From Oscillospiraceae bacterium (lineage in GTDB: Bacteria; Bacillota; Clostridia; Oscillospirales; Ruminococcaceae): 64,000 bases of DNA. The notes below the pieces were generated by a model. That model saw only the letters and a program-made list of their open reading frames with translations, was not told the DNA's origin and made no database searches. Below, one piece after another: positions 46,632 to 64,000 of the stretch (its first letter is position 1; every line of letters starts with the position of its first letter). The position numbers and the translations under genes are program-made. The stretch covers positions 62,001 to 126,000 of the forward strand of contig WQYC01000001.1 in NCBI GenBank assembly GCA_009781425.1, given 5' to 3'.

Positions 46632-47393
46632 ATGAAAAAGCTGTTGGTGGTTGTGTTGGTTTTTGTTTTATTTACGACTACTGTAGGTGCGGAGAGCATA
46701 AAAAGCGACATTAATCCCGATTATCACAAACTCACCATAAATATACCGATTGGTGGAATTCACGGAACTCCGGCATACATAAACTTCTGGGATAAAGAAT
46801 TAACCGAAGATGTATTGTTTAAATTCTTTCCGGGATTTGAGCGCTTCGATTCGATTGAAAGAGTTCATGTAAATTTTAACGGCGATAAACTACTTGGAAT
46901 TTATATAAGAATTATGTACTCTGTTCAAACTTACGCTATAGTAGGTATCGTAGGTGATTTCAATACAAGACATGATTTTGAAAATGAACCGCTGACTTCT
47001 GATATTTTGGGGATTCATGTAACTGCATGGGGTCTCCCGCTTTGGGTTTTTAGAAATCAATTAGGGGCGCGTTTTAACTTAGATAATATTTATTATAACA
47101 TAAGAGTTGATGAAACTGATGAAAATAAAGAATACAGTCCATTTCTTGAAATGCTTGTGAATGAAATTATACGGAGTAGTGTGATTGACGGCTTAGAAGC
47201 GGAGTTAAACGCTTTTGTAAGGGCAACTATGTTTTCCACTGCTGACGCGATAGAGATTCTGCGGTTTGTGGCAGGATTGGAAAATTATGTTGAGAAAGGT
47301 ATTCGTGCATTAGCCTCCGCAGACTTGAACGGTGACGGGAAAATAGATACAGCGGACGCAGTGGAAGTTTTGCGTAGAGTCGCAGGATTATAA
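46632..47393 (+). CDS. Unknown secreted protein with two dockerin-like repeats
   Basis: A 253-residue exported protein: the signal peptide (KKLLVVVLVFVLFTTTVGAE) is followed by an unassigned beta-rich domain (about 25-195) and a C-terminal dockerin-like pair. The first unit (STADAIEILRFVAGLE) lacks a calcium loop; the second (DLNGDGKIDTADAVEVLR) has one. An AAGGAG ribosome site precedes the ATG. It is the first gene of the unit with GMP synthase, nicotinamidase and NAD synthetase, 17 bp before the second. The functional link is not apparent. The front part is AT-rich compared with the downstream metabolic genes. Confidence 0.82.
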   Translation: MKKLLVVVLVFVLFTTTVGAESIKSDINPDYHKLTINIPIGGIHGTPAYINFWDKELTEDVLFKFFPGFERFDSIERVHVNFNGDKLLGIYIRIMYSVQTYAIVGIVGDFNTRHDFENEPLTSDILGIHVTAWGLPLWVFRNQLGARFNLDNIYYNIRVDETDENKEYSPFLEMLVNEIIRSSVIDGLEAELNAFVRATMFSTADAIEILRFVAGLENYVEKGIRALASADLNGDGKIDTADAVEVLRRVAGL

Positions 47394-47410: not shown

Positions 47411-48349
47411 ATGAAAGACATCAAAGCTTACAAGGAACAAAAAATCGCGGAGTTAAAAGCGCAGATTGGTGATAAAAAGGCTCTGCTCGGGCTTTCGGGC
47501 GGCGTGGACAGCTCGGTTTGCTGTGCGCTTTTGGCGCAGGCAATCGGAAAAGGGCTGTACTGCATTTTCGTTGACCACGGGCTTATGCGCAAGAACGAGG
47601 GTGACGAGGTTGAGGCGGCGTTCAAGGACATGAATCTTAACTTTATCCGCGCCAATGCGGAAGAGCGGTTCTTAGGCAAGCTCGCGGGCGTCACTGACCC
47701 CGAGCAGAAACGCAAAATCATCGGCTCGGAGTTTATCCGCGTTTTCGAGGAGGAATCGAACAAGCTCGGTAAGATTGATTTTTTAGCACAAGGTACGATT
47801 TCGCTTGACGTGATTGAATCCAAGGACGCAATCAAGAGCCATCACAATGTCGGAGGCTTGCCTGCCGACGTGAAATTCAGCGGTATCGTTGAGCCGCTCC
47901 GCGAGCTTAACAAAGAAGAAGTCCGCGCGCTCGGGCGCGAGCTTGGGCTCCCCGCACACTTGGTTGAGCGGCAGCCGTTCCCGGGACCGGGGCTTGCAGT
48001 GCGCTGCATAGGCGCGCTCACAAAGGAACGCCTTGATATTCTGCGCGACGCTGATTATATTTTCCGCAGTGAGCTTTCGGCGGCGGGACTCGACAAAAAT
48101 ATAAGCCAGTGCTTCGCCGCGCTCACCGACATGAAGGCGGTCGGGGTGAAGGACGGCAATCGGACTTACGGTTATATCGCGGTGCTTCGAGCCGTGAAAA
48201 CTACTGACTTTATGAACGCGAAGGTTGTTAGAATTCCGTATGAAGTTTTAGAAAAATGCTCGGCGAGAATTATATCTGAGGTTGACGGAATCAGCCGCGT
48301 GGTTTATGATATTACAAGCAAGCCGCCGGGGACGATTGAGCTTGAATAA
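47411..48349 (+). CDS. guaA: GMP synthase ATP-pyrophosphatase subunit, no glutaminase domain
   Basis: A 312-residue cytoplasmic protein equal to the C-terminal two-thirds of GuaA, which adenylates XMP and aminates it to GMP. Motifs: the PP-loop [52 protein letters not shown], the dimerisation-domain [15 protein letters not shown] and the C-terminal [18 protein letters not shown]. The usual N-terminal class I amidotransferase domain (about 190 residues) is absent; the ATG has its own AAAGGAGA site right after the dockerin-like gene. It therefore needs free ammonia or a separate glutaminase subunit, as in archaea. No such subunit is in the window. Confidence 0.93.
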
Positions 48350-48358
48350 GGAGCAAAC

Positions 48359-48883
48359 ATGAAAAAACTCTTACTCGTCATCGATATGCAAAACGACTTC
48401 ATCACAGGCGCGCTCGGCTCGCCGCAGGCGCAGGCGATTGTTCCCGCTGTTAAATCGAAAATCGAGCAGTATAAGCGCGAAAATCACAAAATTATTTTCA
48501 CACGCGACACGCACGGCGAAGATTATATAAGCACGCAGGAAGGCAGATTTTTACCTGTTCCGCATTGCATAACAGGCACGGAAGGACACGAAATCACGCC
48601 GGAGCTTAACACAAGCGGCTGTGAAATTTTCGATAAACCCACTTTCGGTTCTTTGGACTTAGCGGAGCAAGTTGCCGCAAATGAAAACTACGATGAAATC
48701 GAGCTTTGCGGGCTTTGCACGGACATCTGCGTGGTCAGTAACGCGCTGATTTTAAAAGCGAAGCTGCCCGAAACAAAAATCGTTGTTGACGCCGAGTGCT
48801 GTGCGGGCGTTACGGCGGAAAGCCACAACGCCGCGCTTCTTACCATGAAATCATGTCAAGTTGAGGTGTTAAATTATGTTTAA
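48359..48883 (+). CDS. Nicotinamidase-like cysteine hydrolase (isochorismatase fold)
   Basis: A 174-residue cytoplasmic hydrolase. The catalytic aspartate lies in LLVIDMQNDF, the lysine probably in FDKPTFGSL and the nucleophile cysteine in LCGLCTDICVVSNAL. The Asp and following residues (TRDTHGEDY, HCITGTEGHEI) match the metal-site region of nicotinamidases, which cut nicotinamide to nicotinate and ammonia. Being directly upstream of nadE, with an 8-nt overlap, supports a PncA role in NAD salvage. Other isochorismatase-fold activities cannot be excluded. Confidence 0.87.
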   Translation: MKKLLLVIDMQNDFITGALGSPQAQAIVPAVKSKIEQYKRENHKIIFTRDTHGEDYISTQEGRFLPVPHCITGTEGHEITPELNTSGCEIFDKPTFGSLDLAEQVAANENYDEIELCGLCTDICVVSNALILKAKLPETKIVVDAECCAGVTAESHNAALLTMKSCQVEVLNYV

Positions 48884-49607
48884 CGCAAAGGAAACAAAAA
48901 CCCGAATTGTGCAGTGGATTGCAGAATATTTCGAGAACAACGCAACTCCCGAAACCAAAGCCGTCGTCGGTATAAGCGGCGGGAAAGACAGCTCGATTGT
49001 CGCCGCGCTCTGCGCGGAAGCTCTCGGAAGAGAGCGTGTTTTCGGCGTGCTTATGCCGCAGGGTAAGCAGCATGATATCGACGTTTCCTATGATTTATGC
49101 AAAACGCTCGGAATTGAATATATCGAGATTAACATCGAAAAATCAGTACAGGCTTTATATGACGAAATTGCTTCAAGCGGGCAGAAGCTCAACGACGTTG
49201 CGGTTTTTAACACACCTGCGCGTATTCGCATGACTGCGCTTTATGCAATTTCTGCAATCGTTGGCGGCAGAGTCGCGAACACGAGCAACCTCAGCGAAGA
49301 TTACGTCGGCTACGCTACAAAGTTCGGCGATTCCGCAGGCGATTTCAGCCCGTTGTCTGATTTAACAGTCACAGAAGTCAAAGCCGTAGGACGTGAAACC
49401 GCGCTCCCTGCAAGGTTCATCGACAAGACGCCGCTTGACGGCTTGTGCGGGAAAACTGACGAGGAGAACTTAGGCTTCACTTATGAAGCTCTTGATAAAT
49501 ATATACGTGAGGGAATCTGCGAAGACGAAGCAGCCAAGCGGGAAATCGACAGACTTCACAAAATCAGTCGTCATAAGCTTGCGCCGCTTCCCATCTTTAA
49601 GCTTTGA
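48876..49607 (+). CDS. nadE: Ammonia-dependent NAD synthetase
   Basis: A 243-residue cytoplasmic enzyme that amidates nicotinate adenine dinucleotide to NAD using ATP. The PP-loop reads VVGISGGKDSSIVAAL; further signatures are VLMPQGKQ, NTPARIRMTALYAIS, VANTSNLSEDYVGYATKFGD, DFSPLSDLTVTEV and DGLCGKTDEENLGF. Only the synthetase domain is present, so it is the NH3-dependent class without a nitrilase-type glutaminase domain. Its ATG overlaps the nicotinamidase gene by 8 nt. It is the last gene of the unit. Confidence 0.96.
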   Translation: MFNAKETKTRIVQWIAEYFENNATPETKAVVGISGGKDSSIVAALCAEALGRERVFGVLMPQGKQHDIDVSYDLCKTLGIEYIEINIEKSVQALYDEIASSGQKLNDVAVFNTPARIRMTALYAISAIVGGRVANTSNLSEDYVGYATKFGDSAGDFSPLSDLTVTEVKAVGRETALPARFIDKTPLDGLCGKTDEENLGFTYEALDKYIREGICEDEAAKREIDRLHKISRHKLAPLPIFKL

Positions 49608-58389: not shown

Positions 58390-58938
58390 TTACTTCATAA
58401 TACAAAAATATTCATCACTATCCCAGTTCAACGGGTTTTCATCTATGTATTTCCATATTCGGTTGTATTCTTCCTCGTCACGGATAATGCGGTCGTGGTA
58501 TGAGCGTTGCCAAAATGAAAAACCACACTCTTTATTTGTATATCGTTTTAATGTCGATATGAAACTTGGAATTTTTGCGTTCGTAGGGGTCGGCGTCCCC
58601 GACGACCCGCTTTCCGGCACTATCGATAATTCGCTGTTAACAATGCAAACAATCATATGTATGTGATTAGGCATGATAATATATTTTGTTATTTCTAAAT
58701 CATTGTATAAATTGTTCATTTCTTGAATACGCGAATCCACAATCTGACCTATTTTTGATAATTCGCAATACGGGGCGTCGATAACATTTATCGGGGCGTC
58801 GGGGACGCCGCCCCCTACGATTTCGCCCAATATTTCGTGCTTATCTTTCACGCATATCGTCACAAAATAACACCCTGCATTTGAATAATCATAACCTTTC
58901 AATCTTAGGCACTTTCTTTTCGGCAGTTCCTTCCTCAT
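58390..58938 (-). CDS. RAYT-type (REP-associated) Y1 transposase
   Basis: A 182-residue single-stranded-DNA transposase-like protein of the Y1/IS200 superfamily, RAYT branch. Signatures: RLKGYDYSNAGCYFVTICVK, the metal site MPNHIHMIV (HxH), a downstream helix with the probable catalytic tyrosine (STLKRYTNKE), and the RAYT C-terminal FWQRSYHDRIIRDEEEYNRI and YIDENPLNW. Two surface-loop segments (IVGGGVPDAP and SSGTPTPTNA) are encoded by copies of the GC-rich REP-like palindrome. The ATG overlaps the carB stop (ATGA), so it is coupled to the pyrimidine operon. RAYTs usually act on REP palindromes in their own genome. Confidence 0.9.
   Translation of the reverse strand: MRKELPKRKCLRLKGYDYSNAGCYFVTICVKDKHEILGEIVGGGVPDAPINVIDAPYCELSKIGQIVDSRIQEMNNLYNDLEITKYIIMPNHIHMIVCIVNSELSIVPESGSSGTPTPTNAKIPSFISTLKRYTNKECGFSFWQRSYHDRIIRDEEEYNRIWKYIDENPLNWDSDEYFCIMK
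58583..58608. repeat. REP-like palindrome copy 2, inside the RAYT gene
   Basis: The same GC-rich unit as at 58339, opposite orientation (arms GGCGTC and GACGAC around CCC, one mismatch), in frame in the RAYT coding region. Confidence 0.75.
58792..58817. repeat. REP-like palindrome copy 3, inside the RAYT gene
   Basis: The same unit and orientation as copy 1 (GGCGTC-GGG-GACGCC core, ending CCCCTAC), in frame in the RAYT coding region, encoding GGGVPDAP on the minus strand. Confidence 0.78.
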
Positions 58939-61900
58939 ATCTTCGTAATATCCACCATCTCCACATCGTCTATCGTCATTCCCGATTCGAGGCAGTCGGC
59001 GAGCGCGTTTGCGGTGTCGATTGAAGTAAGGCAGGCTATGCCGCGTTCTACGGATTTGCGGCGGATTTTCACGCTGTCAAGCGCGGGGTCTCTGCCTGTT
59101 TCGGACGTTGAAACAACGTAGTCGATTTTCCCGCTTTCAATCAGCGAAATTACATTCGGCTCCTTGCCGTCTTTAATGCGGTAAACGAAATTCGCGGGAA
59201 TCATGTTGTGATTCAGCAGTGAAGCCGTTCCGCTTGTGGCGTAGATGTCGAAGCCGAGCTTCTCGAATTTCCCTGCGAGCTCGATGATTTCGGGCTTGTC
59301 GGAATTACGCACCGAGAATAGAACTCCTCTCGGCTTCCCTTCTTCCGACTTCTTGAACTTGAAGCCTGCCGCGAGCAAGCCCTTAAAAAGTGCTTCCTTA
59401 AAGGTTTTCGCGATTCCGAGCGTTTCGCCTGTAGACTTCATTTCAGGGCCAAGCTGAGTATCAACGTCGTGCAGCTTCTCAAAGCTGAACACGGGAACTT
59501 TCACGGCGAAATACTCGCTTTTGGGGAACAAGCCTGTCGGCAAACCCTGCTGTTTTAAAGTCTGCCCGAGCATGATTTTAGTTGCGATGTCCACCATCTG
59601 CACGCCCGTTACCTTGCTGATATACGGCACGGTGCGGGACGAGCGCGGGTTGACCTCGATTACGTAGACCTCGTTGTTGTAAACGACGTATTGAATATTC
59701 ACCAAGCCGATGATGTTCAGTGCTTTGGCCAATCTCTCGGTGTAGTCGATAATCATGTTTTTGATTTTGCCTTTTATTATCGCGGGATAAACAGAAATGC
59801 TGTCGCCCGAGTGAACGCCCGCGCGCTCGATATGCTCCATTATTCCGGGAATAAGGAAGTCTTCACCGTCGCAAATTGCATCAACCTCTATTTCCTTGCC
59901 CATTAAGTATTTGTCGATTAAGACAGGGTTTTCGAGCTTTGTCGCAGTGATTATTTCCATGTATTCCTGAACGTCGCTGTCGCAGTGCGCGATAATCATG
60001 TTTTGCCCGCCGAGAACATACGACGGTCGCAGAAGCACAGGATAGCCAAGCTTACCTGCGGCGTTCAAAGCTTCCTCAGTGGTATAAACCGTCATGCCCT
60101 CGGGGCGCGGTATATTGCACTTTTCAAGCAGTGCGTCAAAGCGCTCGCGGTCCTCCGCCGCGTCAATGCTGTCGGCGGAAGTTCCGAGAATATTCACGCC
60201 TTTGTCCTGTAGGTGCTTAGTAAGTTTAATCGCAGTCTGTCCGCCGAATTGCACCACAACGCCCCACGGCTTTTCTGTATTTATTAAGTTATCAACATCT
60301 TCGGGGGTGAGCGGGTCGAAGTAAAGCCTGTCGCCCGTGTCAAAGTCAGTCGAAACTGTTTCGGGGTTGTTGTTAACGATTATCGCTTCATAGCCCATTT
60401 CCTTTAACGCCCACACGCAATGCACCGAGCAGTAGTCAAACTCAATCCCCTGCCCTATTCTTATGGGCCCCGAGCCGAAAACTATAACTTTCTTCTTTTC
60501 AGGCGAGTTCATAAATTCAAACGCTTCGTTTTCCTCGTCGCAGTTTACGCCGTAGAAATAAGGCGTTTGCGCCTCAAACTCAGCTGCGCAGGTGTCAACT
60601 AATTTATAAACGCAGTGCTTTTTGTCGATGTTTTTTTCCGCTAATTTCTCGCCGGAAAGCCGTTCGATTGTCTTATCTAAGTAGCCGTATTTTTTAGCAA
60701 GCTGATATTTTTCAGCAGTTAAGCCTTTTGCTAAGTCCTGCTCAAGCTTGCACAGATTGCGTAGCTTTTCAACGAACCACTTATCAAACGCGGTTATGCG
60801 GCAGATTTCTTCGGTTGTCACGCCGCGCTTCAACGCTTCAAATATGCAGAAGATTCTGTCGCAGTCAATGTCGCTGAGCTTGGCGATTACTTCATCGTTT
60901 GTAAGCTTCTCGAACACAGGCTTAGTCAGCGTATCTAAGCCGAGCTCAACGCCGCGCACAGCCTTCATCATCGCTTCCTCGAAGCTGACGCCGATTGACA
61001 TAACCTCGCCCGTAGCTTTCATCTGCGTGCCTAATGTTTTCTTCGCGTAGACGAACTTATCAAACGCAAAACGCGGAAATTTTATGACAACATAGTCAAG
61101 CGCAGGTTCAAAGCAGGCGTAAGTCTTGCCTGTGATTGCATTCGGGATTTCGTCAAGCGAGTAGCCGATTGCGATTCGTGTCGCAACCTTTGCAATGGGG
61201 TAGCCTGTCGCCTTTGAAGCGAGCGCGGAAGAACGGCTGACGCGCGGGTTTACCTCGATTACAGCGTACTCAAAGCTGTTTGGATTGAGAGCCAGCTGCA
61301 CATTACAGCCGCCCTCGATTCCAAGCGCGTTAACGATGTTCAGCGCGGCAGTTCTCATCATTTGAAAATCTTTTTCCGAGAGCGTAAGGCAAGGCGCGAC
61401 AACAATACTGTCGCCCGTGTGAACGCCGACGGGGTCTACGTTTTCCATTGAGCAGACGGTAATCACGTTCCCCTTGCTGTCGCGTATGCACTCGAACTCG
61501 ATTTCTTTCCAGCCCGAAATTCCTTTTTCAATCAGCACCTGCGTAATCGGCGAAAGACGCAAGCCGTTGTCTGCAATTACGCGCAAAGCCGCTTCGTCAC
61601 CCGCTATTCCTCCGCCCGAGCCGCCCATTGTGAAAGCAGGGCGAACCACCACAGGATAGCCTAATTTCCCCGCGACTTCAAGTGCGTCATCCAAGGTTTC
61701 AACCACCTTTGACGGTATGCAGGGCTCGCCGATTGCTTCCATTGTTTCCTTGAAAATCTGCCTGTCCTCGGCTTTGTCGATTGTGTCAACCTTCGCGCCG
61801 AGCAGCTTTACGTTATGCTCGTCAAGGAAGCCTTCCTTCGCGAGCTGCATCGAAAGTGTCAGCCCTGTTTGCCCGCCGAGCGTGGAAAGCAGGCTGTCGG

Positions 61901-62147
61901 GCTTTTCGAGCTTGATGATTTTTTTCACGCTGTCCAAAGTCAGTGGTTCTATATAAATTATGTCCGCCATGTTTTTGTCTGTCATTATCGTCGCGGGGTT
62001 GGAGTTCACGAGCACAACCTCCAAGCCCTCGGCTTTAAGGGCGCGGCAGGCTTGCGTTCCCGCATAGTCGAATTCCGCGGCTTGTCCTATAACTATAGGC
62101 CCCGAGCCTATTACGAGGATTTTTTTGATGTCTTTACGAAGTGGCAT
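58935..62147 (-). CDS. carB: Carbamoyl-phosphate synthase large subunit
   Basis: A 1070-residue cytoplasmic synthetase, full length. It makes carbamoyl phosphate from bicarbonate, ammonia and two ATP. Two homologous halves start with KKILVIGSGPIVIGQAAEFD and KKVIVFGSGPIRIGQGIEFD. ATP-grasp motifs include RPAFTMGGSGGGIAG and RPSYVLGGQNMIIAH, with EVNPRVSRSSALASKATGYP and EVNPRSSRTVPYISKVTG. The C-terminal allosteric (MGS-like) domain follows (about 935-1070, IYATSGTASLLN). All synthetase motifs look intact, in contrast to the glutaminase of CarA. A GGAGAATCTT site precedes the start. The end overlaps the RAYT gene by 4 nt. Confidence 0.98.
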   Translation of the reverse strand: MPLRKDIKKILVIGSGPIVIGQAAEFDYAGTQACRALKAEGLEVVLVNSNPATIMTDKNMADIIYIEPLTLDSVKKIIKLEKPDSLLSTLGGQTGLTLSMQLAKEGFLDEHNVKLLGAKVDTIDKAEDRQIFKETMEAIGEPCIPSKVVETLDDALEVAGKLGYPVVVRPAFTMGGSGGGIAGDEAALRVIADNGLRLSPITQVLIEKGISGWKEIEFECIRDSKGNVITVCSMENVDPVGVHTGDSIVVAPCLTLSEKDFQMMRTAALNIVNALGIEGGCNVQLALNPNSFEYAVIEVNPRVSRSSALASKATGYPIAKVATRIAIGYSLDEIPNAITGKTYACFEPALDYVVIKFPRFAFDKFVYAKKTLGTQMKATGEVMSIGVSFEEAMMKAVRGVELGLDTLTKPVFEKLTNDEVIAKLSDIDCDRIFCIFEALKRGVTTEEICRITAFDKWFVEKLRNLCKLEQDLAKGLTAEKYQLAKKYGYLDKTIERLSGEKLAEKNIDKKHCVYKLVDTCAAEFEAQTPYFYGVNCDEENEAFEFMNSPEKKKVIVFGSGPIRIGQGIEFDYCSVHCVWALKEMGYEAIIVNNNPETVSTDFDTGDRLYFDPLTPEDVDNLINTEKPWGVVVQFGGQTAIKLTKHLQDKGVNILGTSADSIDAAEDRERFDALLEKCNIPRPEGMTVYTTEEALNAAGKLGYPVLLRPSYVLGGQNMIIAHCDSDVQEYMEIITATKLENPVLIDKYLMGKEIEVDAICDGEDFLIPGIMEHIERAGVHSGDSISVYPAIIKGKIKNMIIDYTERLAKALNIIGLVNIQYVVYNNEVYVIEVNPRSSRTVPYISKVTGVQMVDIATKIMLGQTLKQQGLPTGLFPKSEYFAVKVPVFSFEKLHDVDTQLGPEMKSTGETLGIAKTFKEALFKGLLAAGFKFKKSEEGKPRGVLFSVRNSDKPEIIELAGKFEKLGFDIYATSGTASLLNHNMIPANFVYRIKDGKEPNVISLIESGKIDYVVSTSETGRDPALDSVKIRRKSVERGIACLTSIDTANALADCLESGMTIDDVEMVDITKI

Positions 62148-62424: not shown

Positions 62425-62480
62425 AACCACCCCGTCAACCAGTCTGCGGACTGGTTGCCACCCCTCCTCGGAGGGGAATT
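62425..62480. repeat. 56-bp palindromic repeat, left copy flanking the DUF559 gene
   Basis: It begins AACCACCCCGTC and ends GGAGGGGAATT and holds two hairpins: AACCAGTC/GACTGGTT around TGCG, and CCCCTCC/GGAGGGG. It is identical over 56 bp to the copy at 62876-62931, in the same orientation. It directly abuts the DUF559 stop codon. Confidence 0.95.
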
Positions 62481-62872
62481 TAGTTGAACGTGATAGGTTT
62501 GCTCAATGCGGGGTGGTTTTCCAACATTTCCATAACTTTGTTTAAATTATTAAGCACATCGTATGCTTGTATGCGGATTACAGTTAAACCTAAGCTCGTC
62601 ATAAAACTATTGCGGTCGCCGTCATAAATTTCTTTGTTGTCGTGAGATTTTCCGTCAATTTCAATCACAACTGCACAATCAACACAATAAAAATCAACTA
62701 TGTAATTTCCTATTATTTTTTGACGGTCAAAATCGTAGCCTTTGAATTTTTTCTTATTAAACTGCTTCCACATTATAACTTCACATAGGTTTCCCGCCTT
62801 GCGTAATTCTCTTGCTCTTTCCCGCAATTCCGGATTAAAAGGCAGTGAACTATAATTTACTATATTTCTCAT
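62480..62872 (-). CDS. DUF559 Vsr/restriction-endonuclease-fold protein
   Basis: A 130-residue protein of the DUF559 family (very-short-patch-repair-like endonuclease fold). Features: RERARELRKAGNLCEVIMWK, FKGYDFDRQKIIGNYIVDFY, CAVVIEIDGKSHDNKEIYDG with the putative metal-binding Asp and Glu, then LGLTVIRIQAYDVL. The function is unproven; DNA nicking or cleavage is the family expectation. The ATG at 62872 lies just after the right-hand repeat, whose GGGGTGG can act as ribosome site. The stop abuts the left-hand repeat. The gene and its repeats therefore form one compact 507-bp unit inserted between carA and carB. Confidence 0.88.
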   Translation of the reverse strand: MRNIVNYSSLPFNPELRERARELRKAGNLCEVIMWKQFNKKKFKGYDFDRQKIIGNYIVDFYCVDCAVVIEIDGKSHDNKEIYDGDRNSFMTSLGLTVIRIQAYDVLNNLNKVMEMLENHPALSKPITFN

Positions 62873-62875
62873 TTC

Positions 62876-62931
62876 AACCACCCCGTCAACCAGTCTGCGG
62901 ACTGGTTGCCACCCCTCCTCGGAGGGGAATT
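62876..62931. repeat. 56-bp palindromic repeat, right copy flanking the DUF559 gene
   Basis: An exact direct copy of 62425-62480, with the same two internal hairpins, immediately upstream of the DUF559 start. Confidence 0.95.
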
Positions 62932-62952
62932 AATTTTTACTTTTGATGTTCC

Positions 62953-62996
62953 CAATTCCCCTCCGAGGAGGGGTGGCGCGAAGCGACGGGGTGGTT
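62953..62996. repeat. Inverted variant copy of the DUF559-associated repeat
   Basis: Read on the minus strand it begins AACCACCCCGTC and ends GGAGGGGAATT like the flanking copies, but the first hairpin is replaced by GCTTCGCG. With the copy at 62876-62931 it makes a large inverted repeat upstream of the DUF559 gene. Confidence 0.9.
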
Positions 62997-63015
62997 TAAT
63001 TCGCAGTTGCTTTAA

Positions 63016-64000
63016 TTATTTCACCAACCCCAAGAACCTCTCCACCAAATAAGCAGTCGCATTCACTCCGCTCATGTCCGACGGAGCAAACTGCATTGAC
63101 AGTGCAGGGAAACTGCTGTAGCTTATCGCCTCGCAGGTTTTATCGTTTGCATTTATGTGCGTGATTTTACCGACAGCTTCGGGCAAATCTGAAACATAGT
63201 ACCCATGATTCTGCGCAGTGATATAAGTCCTGCCTGATTCAAGGTCAACTACAGGGATATTTGCGCCTCTGTGTCCGTGCGTGTGCTTTGCGGTCGTACC
63301 GCCTGCGGCGAGGGCGAGAAGCTGATGCCCCAAGCCTATTCCCAAAAGCGGGATTTTCGAGGCTATGAGAGCCTTTACGGCTTCGATTTCTTCTGTACAT
63401 TCGGCAGGATTTCCCGCGCCGTTTGACAATACAATGCCGTCGAAATCAGCGGGGTTTATTGTTTCAGTGAAAGGCACAACTGTTACGTTACAGCCGAGCT
63501 TATTAAGTAGAGCGACTATGCTTTTTCTGTGCCCGTAGTCGATTAGAGCGATGTTGTGTTTTGCATTTTCGGCTCTGTACGTGACGCTTTCCGTGCCGCT
63601 GATTAAAGTAATTTCCGGTGTGAAAGATTTCAGCTTGCTTATATCTGCGCTTTCTGTAGTTGAAATCACGCCGTTCATCGTGCCTTTTTTGCGGAGAATT
63701 CGCGCGAGCTTACGCGTGTCAATCCCGCAAAGTCCGATGATTCCGCGCTTTTTCATGAACTCGTCAAGCGTTTCCTCCGAGCGGAAATTCGACGCTACTA
63801 CGCTCTGCTCACGCACGATTAAACCTGCCGCGCCGCCGTAATCCGACAAGTCGTCGTGGCTGTTTGCGCCCGGGCAGCCCGCAATCGGGAACGTCTGCAC
63901 CACGATTTGCCCACTGTAATTCGGGTCTGTCAGCGTTTCTTGGAAGCCTGTCATGCAGGTCGTGAAGACGACTTCGCCTATTAGCTCGCCCTCTGCTCCA
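63016..64000 (-). CDS. carA: Carbamoyl-phosphate synthase small subunit with inactivated glutaminase, 5'-truncated by window edge
   Basis: The small (glutaminase) subunit of carbamoyl-phosphate synthase; the frame stays open to the right edge, so roughly 15-35 N-terminal residues are missing. The N-terminal domain is typical (GEVVFTTCMTGFQETLTDPN, GLCGIDTRKLARILRKKG). The class I amidotransferase domain is recognisable (IVLSNGAGNPAE, GLGHQLLALAAGG, KHTHGHRGANIPV, ITAQNHGYYV). The nucleophile cysteine of GICLGHQ is Gly (LLGIGLGHQ; codon GGC, plus-strand 63334-63336). The His and Glu of the HPE motif are APS (SMQFAPSDM). All three triad residues are therefore lost. It may act only as a structural or allosteric partner of CarB, with ammonia as nitrogen source. 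Confidence 0.93.
   Translation of the reverse strand, partial: GAEGELIGEVVFTTCMTGFQETLTDPNYSGQIVVQTFPIAGCPGANSHDDLSDYGGAAGLIVREQSVVASNFRSEETLDEFMKKRGIIGLCGIDTRKLARILRKKGTMNGVISTTESADISKLKSFTPEITLISGTESVTYRAENAKHNIALIDYGHRKSIVALLNKLGCNVTVVPFTETINPADFDGIVLSNGAGNPAECTEEIEAVKALIASKIPLLGIGLGHQLLALAAGGTTAKHTHGHRGANIPVVDLESGRTYITAQNHGYYVSDLPEAVGKITHINANDKTCEAISYSSFPALSMQFAPSDMSGVNATAYLVERFLGLVK

Follow-up and report, generated by a model that had tools for sequence, protein, structure and literature searches.

Loss of the glutaminase triad from CarA and a probable change to free ammonia in nucleotide amidations of an Oscillospiraceae bacterium

The carbamoyl phosphate synthetase (CPS) encoded at the end of the 64,000-nucleotide stretch of DNA analysed here (the window, C1:62001-126000 of a 2.55 Mb assembly in 67 contigs, 97.7% complete) has lost all three residues of its glutaminase triad. 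Judging from the sequences, we estimate a probability of about three in four that this CarAB is an ammonia-dependent CPS and part of a genome-wide change to free NH3 that would also include GuaA, PyrG, PurL and NadE. We further lean towards the view that the lineage gave up glutamine for its nucleotide amidations (carbamoyl phosphate, GMP, CTP, FGAM and NAD) and uses free ammonia, and that related lineages of the order are partway there, several times independently, via dead sites, half-domains and full domain loss.

carA and its operon

In the window carA is located on the minus strand at 63016..64000, with an ORF (63016..63999) that is open at the window end: 327 of the 347 aa lie inside and the gene start just past it. 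The full gene (L002:5017-6060, minus strand) begins with ATG and contains no internal stop. Over its whole length the product scores above the curated cut-offs of two families, with 322 against 221 bits for NCBIfam NF009475 and 320 against 307 bits for TIGR01368. When aligned to E. coli CarA (1c30 and 1cs0; E. coli residue numbers are counted along this alignment) the place of the nucleophile Cys269 is taken by Gly242 (GIGLGHQ; codon 63334..63336, minus strand). At the places of His353, Pro354 and Glu355 we find Ala325, Pro326 and Ser327 (QFAPS; codons 63079..63087, minus strand). The Cys-His-Glu triad of a glutamine-hydrolyzing CarA is therefore absent, replaced by Gly, Ala and Ser, which confirms what an earlier note on this DNA had read from the letters.

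The changes are not confined to the triad. Compared to E. coli CarA, Ser47, which we take to be a position near the glutamine pocket, is replaced by Asn, and the NGPGDP loop reads NGAGNP. Both changes are common to G000, G012, G026 and G017; the equivalents of Gln273, Gln310, Asn311 and Gly313 are retained in the same four genomes, i.e. apart from Ser47 and the loop the glutamine pocket is mostly preserved. The retained residues would suit a dead domain that serves as a glutamine sensor, binding glutamine unsplit and tuning the NH3-dependent reaction. We give this reading hardly any credence, since it is opposed by the replacement of Ser47 and of the loop and by the second CarA copy of G006, from which the domain is gone. 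The part of CarA that lies in the window (327 aa) was modelled with AlphaFold2 (mean pLDDT 84, pTM 0.85), and the model has a TM-score of 0.91 against E. coli CarA; in this predicted structure the fold is kept and the active site is gone.

The same loss is carried by G012, G026, G017 and G021, and a sequencing error is therefore ruled out. Only a single PF00988 match was found in the whole genome (assembly 97.7% complete), so that carA is no decayed extra copy. The second, intact carA that the earlier note had considered was not found in this assembly, and the single match together with the dN/dS values given below rules out a recent pseudogene beside an intact copy. As that note had stated, the frame is undamaged: all 347 aa form an intact frame under purifying selection.

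The synthetase subunit is encoded 0.9 kb downstream by carB (58935..62147, minus strand, 1070 aa). The alignment of CarB to its E. coli counterpart spans residues 1–1056, and the ATP-grasp motifs, checked to about residue 970, are intact in it. Upstream of carA lie pyrF and pyrC, both named by eye from the sequence. Between carA and carB we noticed a DUF559 ORF (62480-62881, minus strand; PF04480, E 3e-29) bracketed by 61-nt direct repeats (62425-62485 and 62876-62936) that are 97% alike. The repeats contain the palindrome CCCCTCCTCGGAGGGG, and an inverted part-copy is present at 62954-62977; the region 62425-62998 resembles a small mobile unit that entered the operon by insertion. At the other end of carB a 182-aa ORF (58390-58938) overlaps its last 4 bases and has a weak match, below the cut-off, to IS200-like transposases (PF01797, E 5e-4). 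In the relatives G056 and G051 (L053:504-4571, minus strand, and L033:5264-9325, plus strand) the reading frame of CarB also includes a diaminopimelate epimerase domain (PF01678) as an in-frame fusion. CarB frames of 1297–1426 aa in eight more relatives may represent the same fusion.

Amidotransferases elsewhere in the genome

The loss is wider than the CarA change described in the earlier note and extends to GuaA, PyrG and PurL of the same genome. The guaA gene (47411..48349, plus strand, 312 aa) encodes the synthetase part only: it matches TIGR00884 (ATPPase and C-terminal part; 434 bits, cut-off 339) in full, but of the 512 positions of NF000848 only 196–512. Neither a GuaA glutaminase domain nor a separate glutaminase subunit was found, the two PF00117 domains of the genome being those of CarA and PyrG. 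PyrG reads GLSLGMT where intact relatives have G(I/L)CLGM, i.e. the nucleophile Cys of CTP synthase (GxCLGM) is replaced by Ser, while HPE is retained. In PurL we find GIGNGFQ and SCGEG compared to GICNGFQ and SHGEG in intact relatives (Cys to Gly, His to Cys). All three PF00117/PF13507 glutaminase domains that we found in the genome have therefore lost their nucleophile Cys. The NAD synthase gene nadE (48876..49607, plus strand, 243 aa; TIGR00552, 181 bits) is of the single-domain ammonia type and lacks a glutaminase domain. PurF, the genome's one PF13522 domain, keeps its catalytic Cys, and one or more glutaminase sites may thus remain functional; it has Gly at an Asp that is kept in B. subtilis PurF. 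In the window, the protein encoded at 46632-47393 has a C-terminal end that appears dockerin-like by eye (DLNGDG...TADA) without a Pfam match, and the same was seen by eye at the C-terminal end of a protein at L295:457-2004 (minus strand).

A separate glutaminase or deaminase might supply NH3 in trans, in which case the nitrogen would still derive from intracellular glutamine or amino acids and not from external ammonium. Such a source would fit the glutamine synthetase that is present with both its Pfam domains, and the glutaminase domains covered here (PF00117, PF13507 and PF13522) leave room for it in GlsA, asparaginase, PdxT, GATase_3 and GatA; GltB, AsnB and other or unrelated glutaminase families likewise lie beyond them. 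However, the genome profile search returned no PF00117 domain beyond CarA and PyrG, which rules out another glutaminase of this family in trans, and because GuaA, PyrG and PurL are hit in parallel, either a partner for each of them or one general source would be needed. We therefore regard supply in trans as rather unlikely and favour the direct use of free NH3.

GlmS was not found in the genome by profile search, and NagB was. Across 19 genomes GlmS is full-length in seven, partial in G055 and not found in 11 (own included); NagB is present in 12 of 21, in G045 split over two frames. NagB occurs in 9 of 12 genomes without GlmS vs 3 of 9 with it, the GlmS state of G022 and G027 being taken from other searches than the GlmS search; with a Fisher p of 0.087 there is no clear link. 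For Akkermansia, which lacks GlmS, it has been described that NagB is unable to substitute at physiological conditions and that GlcNAc is needed (PMC5902328). A NagB that runs backwards with NH3 in place of GlmS is an idea only.

Glutaminase losses among relatives

We searched the window genome and 59 relatives with PF00988 and aligned all 57 CarA copies, which were found in 54 of the 60 genomes. The nucleophile Cys is present in 42 copies (one of them cut just after the Cys by a contig end), absent in 14 including our own, and one copy lacks the entire glutaminase domain. In the 14 dead CarAs the position is occupied by Gly, Ser, Arg, Asp or Glu. For comparison, a genome-contig scan with N-terminal peptides as queries, which serves as a background set and has no close kin among the matches listed, gave at least 80 CarA loci, and among those listed 78 had Cys and HPE, one had Cys and HPD and one had lost the Cys.

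A tree built from the CarA N-terminal domain and the start of CarB (56 rows, six of them less than half filled; the second G036 copy was left out) shows eight switches between intact and dead states, all forced by well-supported branches, which rules out a single origin of all dead CarAs. A first tree of the N-terminal domain alone gave nine changes, five of them forced. Since the Cys is near-universal elsewhere, the changes are most simply losses. The window genome's clade (support 100/99) comprises G000, G012, G026, G017, G021 and the second copy of G006, and the change is conserved within it, as the earlier note had thought worth checking. Two long branches, the second copy of G042 and G052, meet in the tree, and their grouping is unsure.

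Within the clade CarA is full-length in G000, G012 and G026. In G021 a stretch of the glutaminase domain is missing, leaving about 265 aa, and the CarA in the pyrimidine operon of G006 is reduced to its N-terminal domain (about 143 aa), with carB behind it. In the three two-copy genomes (G006, G036 and G042) it is the copy beside pyrC/pyrF that is dead or shortened, whereas the Cys is present in the other. However, CarA is intact in many relatives whose carA lies in the pyrC/pyrF context, so the context alone is not decisive.

GuaA was matched in 53 of the 60 genomes. Classified by open-frame length it is full-length in 33 and only short (313–373 aa) in 14; five genomes have only a form of 432–455 aa, and in one the gene is cut by a contig end. 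A half-domain form was found in G037, G046, G052, G056 and the second G058 copy (L280:2367-3738 and L276:860-2159, both plus strand, are examples among relatives). It covers about positions 1–78 of 190 of PF00117 and ends about where the Cys should stand, with the full synthetase part behind. The glutaminase remnant in GuaA of G003 is too weak to match. In G058 the half-domain GuaA adjoins a full-length GuaA, and in G049 (L293:1146-3744, plus strand) a full-length GuaA is directly followed by a short GuaA without glutaminase domain.

The GuaA glutaminase domain is missing or incomplete in all 11 genomes whose CarA is dead and in five of the 35 whose CarA is intact (Fisher p 3e-7, kinship not corrected). 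These 46 of the 60 genomes are those scored after omission of genomes without a CarA or GuaA match and of G013, where GuaA is cut by a contig end. G010 has no PF00958 match in the GuaA search yet a GuaA-like stretch beside its carA. Corrected for kinship the test yields five independent pairs, of which on average 3.8 point in the same direction and none in the opposite one (p 0.06–0.5); it stays below significance because the pairs are too few.

CTP synthase and FGAM synthase were analyzed in smaller sets. The 30 genomes for PyrG were chosen by hand (21 with dead or missing CarA or incomplete GuaA and nine others, including G020 that also has a short GuaA), and the counts are therefore no measure of prevalence. 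PyrG was matched in 16 of them, with Cys to Ser in G000, G012, G026 and G020. The PyrG of G021 has the Cys but reads RPE in place of HPE. There was no match to CTP synthase (PF06418) in the other 14 (G017, G022, G027, G004, G051, G056, G037, G052, G045, G055, G057, G040, G059 and G046). PurL was found in 24 of 25 genomes in 27 copies, 19 with and eight without the Cys. Since six relatives (G051, G056, G037, G052, G022 and G027) pair a dead CarA with an intact PurL, the conversion is often partial. In G020 CarA is intact, GuaA is short and PyrG has Ser for Cys.

We used a simple Nei-Gojobori count, in which synonymous sites are near saturation, to compare selection on the two domains of CarA. 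Among G000, G012 and G026 dN/dS is 0.11–0.16 for the dead glutaminase domain and 0.09–0.11 for the N-terminal domain; in seven pairs of intact genomes the values are 0.01–0.08 and 0.03–0.13, respectively. Pairs among G022, G027 and G004 gave 0.16–0.19 for the glutaminase domain; CarA is dead in the first two, and that of G004 has the Cys with HPD. Selection on the dead domain is relaxed, not lifted. The domain is dispensable, as it is partly deleted in G021 and gone from the pyrimidine-operon copy of G006. The proposal of the earlier note that the losses reflect adaptation and not decay is thus supported by the constraint in G000, G012 and G026 and needs to be qualified in view of these two relatives.

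Decay would mean that the pathway is on its way out, with uptake or salvage of carbamoyl phosphate and nucleotides, while CarAB, GuaA and PyrG would be in an early stage of erosion. The erosion of the dead domain in kin can be read in this way, as can the lack of a CarA match in 6 of the 60 genomes and of a PyrG match in 14 of the 30 chosen ones. However, CarA, CarB, GuaA, PyrG, PurL and NadE of the window genome all have full frames, both CarA domains have a dN/dS near 0.1, CarB is intact and 89–92% identical in G026 and G012, and it is the glutaminase parts that are hit while the synthetase parts are spared. We consider decay highly unlikely and retain the change to free ammonia as our explanation.

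Proposed use of ammonia and comparison with known systems

According to this explanation CarA would retain its N-terminal domain and a folded dead glutaminase domain that may brace CarB, and CarB would use bicarbonate, two ATP and free NH3 to form carbamoyl phosphate in the manner of vertebrate CPS I. GMP synthase (domain lost), CTP synthase (Cys to Ser), FGAM synthase (Cys to Gly, His to Cys) and NAD synthase would likewise take free NH3, and the retained glutamine synthetase would probably supply glutamine for protein. In the simplest account the glutaminase parts were lost one after another and the synthetase parts kept where NH4+ is plentiful. We infer the use of NH3 in vivo, the ammonium-rich habitat and the bracing role of the dead domain. 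Some observations speak against the explanation: PurF has its catalytic Cys, conversion among the relatives is often partial, the kinship-corrected test of CarA with GuaA falls short of significance, the glutamine pocket is mostly preserved, and E. coli CPSase takes very high NH3 concentrations (PMC6245113). The ammonia-dependent CarAB proposed in the earlier note thus gains support by computation. For E. coli CPS it is described that variants whose tunnel is blocked or perforated have normal activity with external ammonia, for which an alternative path has been suggested (PMC4655335). The chemistry with NH3 is therefore possible and the question is one of affinity.

Ammonia-dependent CPS in vertebrates and ammonia-type NadE in many bacteria are known already; the new side is the genome-wide loss of glutaminases. 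In Table 1 of a 2012 survey, which counts presence and not active-site residues, none of the genomes tabulated for CarAB (600), GuaA (730), PyrG (800) and PurL (660) lacks a glutaminase component (PMC3376133). A 2018 review names glutamine as the donor for all bacterial CPSases (PMC6245113), and a structural paper presents CPS1 as the one CPS type not using glutamine (PMC4655335). Our search of the open-access literature found no report of dead CarA glutaminase sites in bacteria or of a genome-wide loss. If the explanation is true, the textbook channelling that couples glutaminase and synthetase via an ammonia tunnel would be dispensable in nature, and in several enzymes at once. Intermediate relatives with a dead triad, half a glutaminase domain or no domain would let one ask how channelling is lost, and an ammonium need in growing such organisms might be explained.

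Several known systems resemble parts of this arrangement. In the two-subunit archaeal GMP synthetase the synthetase part is a separate chain as well; it has a separate glutaminase subunit (PMC9312489), for which the PF00117 search of the window genome gave no counterpart. Single-domain NadE (type N), of which the window holds one, is an amidotransferase synthetase working without a glutaminase part. Its use of ammonia in vivo has been argued, it accounts for 44% of genomes in Table 1 of the survey and it was proposed to be ancestral; the state of the window lineage, in contrast, is derived and hits enzymes for which that table contains no such case (PMC3376133). CPS III of soda-lake fish (Oreochromis Alcolapia) has made a convergent shift from glutamine to ammonia, but it still has the triad and lost a residue that binds glutamine (PMC7657897), whereas the window CarA lost the triad. 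E. coli CarAB has the same subunits and fold, and the engineered loss of Cys in the CarA C269S mutant (1c30) resembles the natural one. Wild-type E. coli CPSase differs in that it uses glutamine, and its use of ammonia takes very high NH3 concentrations (PMC6245113).

The comparison with CPS I drawn in the earlier note holds for the lost nucleophile: vertebrate CPS1 uses ammonia as donor and its nucleophile Cys is replaced (PMC4655335). In the human enzyme (5dot, 5dou) Ser stands at this position and the glutaminase fold is kept, and our CarA model shares this fold with TM-scores of 0.84–0.86. Of the features of a CPS I type, nucleophile replacement is present in the window CarA (Gly242) and the single fused chain is not. 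CPS1 is one fused chain, acts in the urea cycle and is switched on by N-acetylglutamate. The window system, in contrast, consists of separate carA and carB in a bacterial pyrimidine operon, has all three triad residues replaced and belongs to a genome in which GuaA, PyrG and PurL are changed as well.
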